In this document: in pieces, positions 42,301 through 45,300 of the stretch
Numbering within the stretch: position 1 is the stretch's first letter
Layout: every line of letters begins with the position of its first letter
Origin: Leptasterias polaris
Lineage: Eukaryota > Echinodermata > Asteroidea > Forcipulatida > Asteriidae
Assembly (NCBI GenBank): GCA_037783415.1
Contig: JAZGTN010000002.1
Coordinates: 620,001 to 684,000, forward strand
DNA: 64,000 bases
Direction of reading: 5' to 3'
Notes under the pieces: generated by a model
Seen by the model: the letters and a program-made list of their open reading frames with translations, nothing else
Database searches by the model: none
Told to the model about the DNA's origin: nothing
Position numbers and translations under genes: made by a program

Positions 42301-45300
42301 GTGTTAATATTTTTAATTACTGTGGGATTTTTTTTTTTTGGGGGGGGGAACAAATTCACTCACATTTTCTTGTTTTCAATGATCAACAGAACAAAATTTA
42401 AACAACAAGTGAAACTTGTGTGACATTACCTTCAAATTATTCACGATTAAAATAATCATACATGATATTAAAGGAATATTGCCCAATTTCAAAGAGCTGC
42501 TGATGCCGAAAAAATGCTTAAAACCTTATTCGGCTCAGCAGAAATAAGCAGGATACCAGTCACAGATGTTATATGGGACATGGCATTTTGGCCGGTGACT
42601 GTACTCTGGTAAGCATCATTTTCTGAAATTGCTCCTGGTACAGTTCTTTCACGCCCCCCCCCCCCCCCCCCACCAAAATGCATGCAACAAAACTAAGCTT
42701 TGAATGGGAACAAAATAGTCTGGTTCTTTAATTGTGTTTTGAAATTCACTCATCGTAATTCTATGCACGTTCAGGAAACTTGACAAACATGGAGGCATGA
42801 ATAACATTTGTTGGGGAGAGACGTCGCGTTGTAACCTAGTTTGGTCGTTTTCTTTAGAAGTCATCAAGGTAAAGAGAGAAGAAGTAACTATAACTATAAA
42901 TGTAAATAGTAGTGAACTTGCGGGTACAACCATGTGTATAATCTCTTTTGGGAGGAGTGTTGACCAAACCGGCTCTTTTCAGAGCCAACACTCCTCCCAA
43001 AAGAGATTATACACATGGTTGTACCCGCAAGTTCACTACTATTTACATTTATAGTTATAGTTACTTCTTACTTTCAACACCATGCAAAGCTTCAAACACC
43101 ACTTAAGGTAAAGAGAGATTAGAAAAATGTATCGGCCGCTTGACGTACCTGCAATTACACATCGATCAGAATCGAAAGTATAATCGTTGACGAAGCAGGC
43201 GGTTATGAAAAACACAATGAACGTGCGCTGTGAGCTATGTATTGAAAAGAACAGAACACAGCGTGTGGAAACTTGGCAAACCTTGGAGTGCCGTTTGGGG
43301 TATAGAGGTATTCAGCAAACGATCGTACAAAAGAATTAAAAAGTACACAAATAGCACGGGCACAGTATTTGTGAAATCAAGTTTGGGTAATAATTTATGA
43401 TTCGGTTTGAATTGTTCAAACGTAACCATAGACATTTAAATGGAACTTGAAGCCATGTTGTAATGATGTATTTTTTTGTTTTTTCACAAGAAAGCACTGC
43501 TTTGAAATAAGCGAGGTTTTCGGCCTTTAAAAAAGTTCAACATTTGTTTACTTGGTGTGATGATGGTTTGGGACCGGTTGTGCTGAATCACTGATGCAAA
43601 ACCCCGTTAAGTTTCCCACCTTCATGTGTGGGAATCTTTGCTCTGACGCGTCAGAGCAAACATTCCCACTTGACGGGTCGTAGGTGTCAATTAAAAAGTC
43701 TTGATTTGTCATAAAATTAACATGCGGAAATTGCACTTAAAATGTTTTTGTAGATACGTCCCAAGAAGACAAGGTCCCAATTTCAAAGAGCTGCTTCAGC
43801 AGACAATTAGGCCGTGTCCGAATTAACGGCTACAGCTACGGCTACAGCTACGGCTAGATTTCCGCGTCATCATGCGTTGAAGTATAGGATGTCCTTAGCA
43901 ACACCCTTAGCAACAGCCGTAGCTGTAGCTGTAGCCGCCAATTCGGATACGGCCACACTTTCGGCTGAGCAACACATTTTCGGCTAAGCAAAACATGTCT
44001 ACAGTAATAATGGTACATAGCCTATGGCTCGGTATTTTGGCTGGTAACCGCATTCTGTTTACTGATCTGCTTATTAAGCAGCTCACTGATATATGGCCTT
44101 GTCGGTAACCACTTGTTATGAGCTCCCCTTTTACTAGTGAAAACGACGAATAATGGTTTATATTTGGGTTTTTTAATGTAAATAAATGAATTGCATAAAT
44201 TTAATTTTGAATAAAACGGACACTTCCCTCATCAATGTCACCTCAATTGTCTGGATTCATAAAACTTCAAAATAAAGTCCATATGATGTGGTAAATTCAA
44301 TTTAAATCTCATGCAATTGTGTTGTTGTTATGTTTTGCAGTTGAGGCAACAACATTCCAAACAACAATGCTGACAAAAGTGCTGATGAAAGTACAACAGT
44401 AGTAACATATCAGAGCACTACATGGGACTTAACAACAGAGGGCACCACCACCACCGACGGTGCAGTCACAACAGATCGTACCACGTTGGTGGCGTTATCA
44501 ACAACTGCAGCATCCACAACTGGTGAACCGACGTCAATGCAACAATCAACAACTTCAGAGCCATTGCCGACCACTGACGAGTCAACAACAGCAGCATCCA
44601 CAATTGACGAGTCGACGTCAATGCAACAATCAACAACTTCAGAGCCATTGCCGACCACTGGTGAGTCAACAACTACAGCATCCACAACTGATGAGTCGAT
44701 ATTAACACAACAGTCAACAACTTCAGAGCCATTGCCGACCACTGACGAGTCAACAACAGTTGAAGAATCAACAACATTGAAAGCGTCCACAACAACTCTT
44801 CCACCATCAACAACTACACAGCCAATAGTGACCACCGTTCAACCAACTACACCTCTGACCCCAATGACGTCATCAACGTCAACTGCAGAACCGACCATCT
44901 TATACAATCTTACCGTCACAAATAAGGACAGCACCTCTCTCACCATCTCGTGGACAATCTTCGTTGAGGTATCGGCTGCTCAGGTTCAGTGGCGCCCTTT
45001 GTTGGCTGGGTCAAACTTTGAGAGCAGTAGTGCTGTTGTTCCAACTTTGCCGGAGTACACGTTGACTGGTGTCACGGCAGCCACTACGTATGAGATACGA
45101 CTTGCGTTGTCGAGGAATGGAGTACTACAGACTGGGGACTCTGTGTTTGATAGCACATGTCCAGAAGGATTCACAAATCTTCTTTGTTCAGAGGGTAAAC
45201 ATCATTTTTGTAGAGACAAAATACATTCTTAACCACATTCAAAATTTCCCGTCGGGGGGAAGGTTTCCGTAGAAACTGGAAATTCTATTATTATTATTAT

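Follow-up and report, generated by a model that had tools for sequence, protein, structure and literature searches.

The window analysed here, a 64,000-nucleotide stretch of the genome of the starfish Leptasterias polaris, carries at 42880-43104 a 225-bp insertion folded around a histone-type stem-loop. Its inverted arms (42879-42962 and 42986-43069) are 84 nt each, 100% complementary and separated by a 23-nt gap; the arm proper to the element is 83 bp, as the 84th base (42879) doubles as the last base of a flanking direct repeat. Re-checking the equality of the arms bore out a first-pass annotation of this DNA, which had described a perfect 83-bp inverted duplication centred on a histone mRNA stem-loop. 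The flanking repeat, AAGGTAAAGAGAGA, is a perfect 14-bp target-site duplication lying immediately on both sides of the insertion (left copy 42866-42879, right copy 43105-43118, both on the forward strand). None of 35,013 control anchors outside tandem repeats reached 14 bp; this masked control was used in place of an unmasked one swamped by tandem arrays, in which 1367 of 62,701 anchors did so. The 225-nt insert has a folding energy of -151 kcal/mol (z -26). Several microRNA families match the long hairpin, all below their gathering scores, and we rejected a microRNA precursor, reading these matches as a by-product of the perfect hairpin.

The left arm (42880-42962, reverse strand) is a tailless pseudo-long terminal repeat (pseudo-LTR) of a Penelope-like element (PLE) and corresponds to positions 625-542 of the PLE reference, its outer limit being the proximal terminal site and its inner limit the final base of the stem-loop (reference 542). 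Next on the forward strand come ACCAAACC (42963-42970), which precedes the stem-loop, and the stem-loop itself, GGCTCTTTTCAGAGCC (42971-42986), which forms the centre of the palindrome and for which shuffles of the window average 0.03 matches at up to two mismatches. The Rfam Histone3 model (RF00032) matches 42966-43010 at E 1.1e-6 for 800 bases searched; its 30.6 bits fall short of the gathering score, 34. The right arm (42986-43068, forward strand), which starts 2 nt past a predicted hammerhead-like cleavage point, continues the pseudo-LTR 3′ of the stem-loop, is identical to the PLE reference, and bears the histone-downstream-element-like AAAAGAGATT (42999-43008, forward strand) 12 nt past the stem-loop. 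The two halves are asymmetric, the right arm being followed by a 36-nt PLE tail (43069-43104, forward strand) that has no pairing partner and includes the PLE start codon (43082-43084) and first codons.

Over 42962-43105 the window is identical at 144 of 144 positions to reference positions 518-661, in a comparison with 1000 bases of the reference copy (locus L050, contig C37). That copy contains an uninterrupted ORF (L050:3938-6502) of 855 amino acids counted from the first methionine, with an RVT_1 domain (43.4 bits, cut-off 29.6) and a GIY-YIG domain within the C-terminal 255 amino acids (28.8 bits, cut-off 22.6). Relatives of the protein include those of Asterias amurensis (59%), Patiria miniata (54%), Strongylocentrotus purpuratus (48%) and Anolis carolinensis (39%); a search of the PDB by sequence found none. 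The PLE units of the reference copy lie 2755 bp apart, and the start codon, at reference 638, falls inside the pseudo-LTR repeat. The element thus resembles PLEs of the Penelope/Poseidon type as described in the available parts of PMC3846280 and PMC11167929: a single ORF joins reverse transcriptase to a C-terminal GIY-YIG domain, pseudo-LTRs stand in tandem or inverted order, the ORF begins inside a pseudo-LTR, one of two inverted pseudo-LTRs may or may not carry a tail of about 31-40 bp (36 nt in the starfish insertion), and target duplications are short (14 bp here). The excerpted text of PMC3846280 also records bdelloid PLE pseudo-LTRs that hold the start codon and first codons, as the starfish tail does.

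At least 94 genomic matches to the 225-nt insert were listed, with 40 of 1890 candidates scored; among the matches listed, the right 143 nt recur as 100% copies at many places, and other palindromic versions are 81-96% identical. Matching loci share one layout, in which the tail of the ORF is followed by a hammerhead-like motif (recognised by eye) and then by the stem-loop. A second, older and 5′-truncated PLE copy lies in the window at 13033-13275 (reverse strand), 83% identical to the reference, and retains the C-terminus of the ORF, the stem-loop (one mismatch) and a purine box; it sits in an intron of a putative GOSR1-like gene, so named from its protein reading. Weak matches to the PLE pseudo-LTR (72-74%) at 40675-40735 and 10987-11036 are perhaps old remnants. 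The palindrome is almost certainly a 5′-truncated fold-back insertion of the host starfish's own PLE. As such it is an ordinary PLE product, and the part worth following is the signal within the PLE.

The histone-type signal in the PLE and in host histone genes

Across the genome (630 Mb, 334 contigs) GGCTCTTTTCAGAGCC occurs 1471 times (890 forward, 581 reverse), while the reversed-pattern control gave 0. A script placed 87 of the first 100 exact stem-loops listed in PLE copies, four in histone genes (read as H2A, H2B, H4 and H3) and nine elsewhere, some of the nine being decayed PLE or histone-like signals with no recognised gene. At five loci (L119, L126, L122, L068 and L130) an exact stem-loop has neither a histone gene nor a PLE recognised nearby, and at two of these, L119 and L126, a purine box is present as well. 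PLEs probably account for a smaller share genome-wide than in this 100-place sample, because a tandem histone array on contig C160 lies outside it (at least 41 H3 matches there, in a list of 150 of 218 candidates). Outside this genome, a scan of IMG/VR with a 21-base pattern gave 0 matches, one with the PLE protein gave no relative, and one with the bare 16-mer gave 11 stretches, none of them seen in a PLE or histone context; a prokaryote scan with an 18-base word returned 11 stretches.

The PLE stem-loop is the same as that of host histone genes at 16 of 16 bases, in agreement with the first-pass annotation. The U7-target-like purine box that it had noted downstream was likewise recovered at histone spacing: AAAAGAGAT lies 12 nt past the stem-loop in the PLE and, exactly matched, 12-13 nt past it in the four H2A, H2B, H4 and H3 genes outside the array. 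These four genes (loci L060/L061) were found via the exact stem-loop, so that their stem-loop match reflects selection and their purine-box match does not. Three genes of the C160 array, chosen regardless of stem-loop, carry 8 of 9 purine-box bases at 11-13 nt; their stem-loop is exact in H3 and H2B and variant in H2A. From the purine box onward the H2B gene reads AACACATTTCCCAAAGAGAGATTT and the PLE AACACTCCTCCCAAAAGAGATT. Within the 64-kb window AAAAGAGAT occurs four times, three of them within the two PLE copies; an earlier chance estimate, which included the PLE copies, was 20 of 127,920.

Like the histone mRNA 3′ signal (RF00032), the PLE has the same stem-loop, purine box and spacing and follows an ORF stop without AATAAA; neither AATAAA nor ATTAAA was found in the 2963 bases of the PLE copy examined. 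Unlike that signal, it sits in a retrotransposon beside a hammerhead-like motif, 76 nt past the stop codon, compared with 26-30 nt for three genes of the host cluster, and its processing is putative. An Rfam search for a U7 snRNA gene was empty, and equally empty in its own controls. The first-pass annotation had proposed a genome search and a comparison with the histone clusters, and held that arms unlike the histone loci would make the stem-loop match coincidental. The comparison found the stem-loop and purine box common to both and arms that are not histone-like, yet the match is not thereby coincidental, because a 16-base stem-loop is accompanied by AAAAGAGAT at histone spacing. Stem-loop and purine box are very probably present by descent or convergence and not by chance.

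We sampled PLE copies independently of the stem-loop through a neighbouring 14-mer, GAAACGTCGAGACC (847 in the genome, 2 for the reversed control), and read 22 instances in 20 loci. The exact stem-loop is kept in 14 of the 22 copies. In the 20 of 22 that remained after two were dropped for a stem-loop or downstream part that was not measurable, the stem-loop averages 0.957 identity and positions 566-626 average 0.81 (Wilcoxon p 5e-4), a difference inflated by the fact that GAAACGTCGAGACC adjoins the stem-loop. In a further 60 copies, selected by stem-loop, several pseudo-LTR positions distinguish older subfamilies from the young one, and the purine box is 0.89 conserved. With GAAACGTCGAGACC adjoining the stem-loop and the 60-copy set conditioned on it, we take stem-loop conservation as moderate evidence. 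Among the second arms of fold-backs, the 12 that lack an exact stem-loop stand at 0.84 for the stem-loop, 0.81 for the rest and 0.78 for the purine box; this decay is as expected if neutral and does not support selection, and neither the stem-loop-selected copies nor the second arms show a sign of selection on dead copies.

Possible use of the signal in forming PLE 3′ ends

The histone stem-loop is bound by SLBP and the purine box by the U7 snRNP; histone RNA is cut about 5 nt past the stem-loop and is not polyadenylated, and such mRNAs are made in S phase. We hypothesize that host SLBP and U7 snRNP would cut PLE transcripts at the pseudo-LTR signal, giving a non-polyadenylated, stem-loop-ended PLE mRNA in S phase. 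Since insertions start 80-120 nt beyond the predicted cut, their template must be transcripts left uncut, for example tandem read-through. An uncut tandem read-through RNA, retaining the downstream start sites, would serve as this template, and the signal would thus split PLE transcripts into mRNA and template. Judged from the sequence, the signal is probably used for PLE 3′ end formation. For the stronger statement, that the PLE may have taken over the host histone 3′ end machinery to make a poly(A)-less S-phase mRNA while keeping uncut tandem RNA for insertion, we see the odds as evenly balanced. The whole account, joining the fold-back PLE to an SLBP/U7-processed mRNA and an uncut template, has in our estimate a probability of roughly 0.6.

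Two observations count against cutting by SLBP and U7: the inserted RNA was not cut at the signal, and the Rfam Histone3 score lies below the gathering score. The first is also what would be seen if the signal did not serve 3′ ends at all and were a captured or convergent RNA structure, such as a site where the element's own protein binds or halts, or a relic. Insertions derive from RNA uncut at the stem-loop (ends at reference 623-664), the left arm at 42880-42962 breaks off precisely on the final base of the stem-loop, the pattern expected of a structural stop, and a hammerhead-like motif lies directly upstream. Such a structure would, however, leave unexplained both the purine box at histone spacing and the absence of AATAAA/ATTAAA, and the inner ends of the remaining fold-backs are scattered rather than gathered at the stem-loop. 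We regard this alternative as a serious though minority possibility.

The available portions of PMC3846280 and PMC11167929 offer no explanation of how PLE RNA 3′ ends are formed, and the PLEs they describe differ from the starfish element in that a histone-type stem-loop and purine box in the pseudo-LTR go unmentioned there. A search of the open literature with limited wording found no paper on a histone stem-loop with SLBP in a retrotransposon. If 3′ end formation by the histone route is true, it would add a novel mode of RNA 3′ completion for elements of this kind: PLE mRNA would lack poly(A), and the element would be tied to DNA replication, the phase in which target DNA is accessible. Most exact histone-type stem-loops in L. 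polaris would then belong to a retrotransposon and not to histone genes, and echinoderm surveys that count histone stem-loops would mostly be counting a retrotransposon. A histone-type PLE end can be tested with published non-poly(A) RNA of starfish embryos.

The hammerhead-like motif upstream of the PLE stem-loop, CTGAAGA...GAAACGTC, which was also folded, resembles a minimal hammerhead by eye; Rfam hammerhead models gave no match at E up to 5 in the stretch searched. Among 50 simple PLE copies, 26 start at reference 466-485, just upstream of this motif, and are about 150-190 bp long and retrozyme-like. In having many short copies that start at a hammerhead-like motif, the PLE recalls the metazoan retrozymes and hammerhead-bearing retroelements covered in the accessible part of PMC7229834; unlike them, it has a motif matched by eye and no Rfam hammerhead listed. 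At another locus (L058, C6:3318500-3320900) units of about 84 bp, each hammerhead-like motif plus stem-loop, stand head to tail, with three exact stem-loops and further decayed ones.

Origin of the fold-back copies

The sample of the first 100 listed exact stem-loop places comes from contigs C2-C7 and comprises 88 loci, 32 of which are fold-backs after three artefacts were removed; the rows left out were these three and six extra ones, all nine produced artefactually by reference positions 1-68, together with five loci that had been fetched a second time. Of the 50 simple copies, 19 end at the proximal terminal site, 15 at the distal one and 16 at other positions. Among unique fold-backs, 32 have each of their outer ends close to a terminal site, and 30 of these pair an arm bearing the tail of about 36 nt (distal end) with a tailless one (proximal end). 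The count is 16 of 18 for the sample and 14 of 14 for a second set of unique fold-backs, selected by similarity to the 42880-43104 insertion. The exceptions are L087, with two distal ends and arms 71-80% identical, and L128, with one proximal end and one 11 nt beyond the distal site. Young fold-backs, those in which each arm shares at least 94% identity with the reference, are flanked by 12-14-bp duplications in 21 of 23 cases, one of the others having 10 bp and one none; the maximum among 9000 random anchor pairs was 10. Taken over many fold-backs, the one-tail rule and the 12-14-bp duplications amount to a quantitative record of PLE integration.

In Anolis, the two strands of the target are cut and extended by the PLE protein; reverse transcription starts at two neighbouring internal positions, and the interval separating them corresponds to the genomic tail (PMC11167929). 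From the regularities above, the starfish PLE protein would most likely nick both target strands, 14 bp apart. Primed at one nick, copying of PLE RNA would begin at the distal start site and yield the arm with the tail; primed at the other, it would begin at the proximal start site and yield the tailless arm, and head-to-head joining of the two cDNAs would follow near the stem-loop. An origin from two reverse transcripts, each primed separately, is favoured because the tailless arm begins where 19 of 50 simple copies end. The one-each rule exceeds what independent choice of start sites would give, which suggests a paired complex behind it.

Identical arms and the recurrence of head-to-head palindromes (32 of 88 sample loci) are also what would be left by a single reverse transcript that folds back near the hairpin and copies itself, the snap-back origin put forward in the first-pass annotation. 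Self-priming of this kind is discussed in PMC3846280, whose available text attributes palindromic PLE junctions to it and already records that one inverted pseudo-LTR may carry the tail or lack it, so that the anatomy of PLE fold-backs is known. Copying by snap-back would, however, have to halt about 36 nt short each time, exactly at the proximal site; that site ends 19 of 50 simple copies with no palindrome and so behaves as a start site, and the junction at 42880-43104, inspected by eye, shows a single shared G and otherwise no microhomology. The palindrome is accounted for at least as well by two opposed transcripts primed at the target; snap-back, while it could have occurred, is not required and seems to us the less likely origin. 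Nor is the conversion once suggested to keep the arms identical needed for a young insertion. Finally, the proposal that the insertion is a histone orphon, a dispersed piece of histone 3′ flank duplicated by inversion, accounts for the stem-loop and purine box and was nonetheless rejected as highly improbable: the PLE matches arms and tail end to end (144/144 over the right half), seven histone gene flanks are similar only around the stem-loop and purine box, and there is no adjacent histone coding sequence.

Other features of the window

A tRNA-Asp prediction at 47904-47976 matches 1095-1165 at 94% over its 3′ half and 37 bp beyond (to 48013); this sharing between 47904-48013 and 1095-1165 points to a SINE of tRNA origin and not to a tRNA gene. 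A match to the mir-2006 precursor at 35743-35825 (reverse strand) scores 87.5 bits against a gathering score of 90 and is likely a true echinoderm microRNA locus. The stretch 52296-53911 is a young satellite array with 51% GC, built from about 33 copies of a 49-bp unit at 98%, in which three reverse-strand frames are open for more than 500 codons; related 43-bp tandem arrays (CAGTGTGTCC...TACAGACGCTT) occupy several blocks at 57075-61612. The host stands close to Asterias, a GPCR encoded in the window being 88% identical to an Asterias amurensis GPCR.
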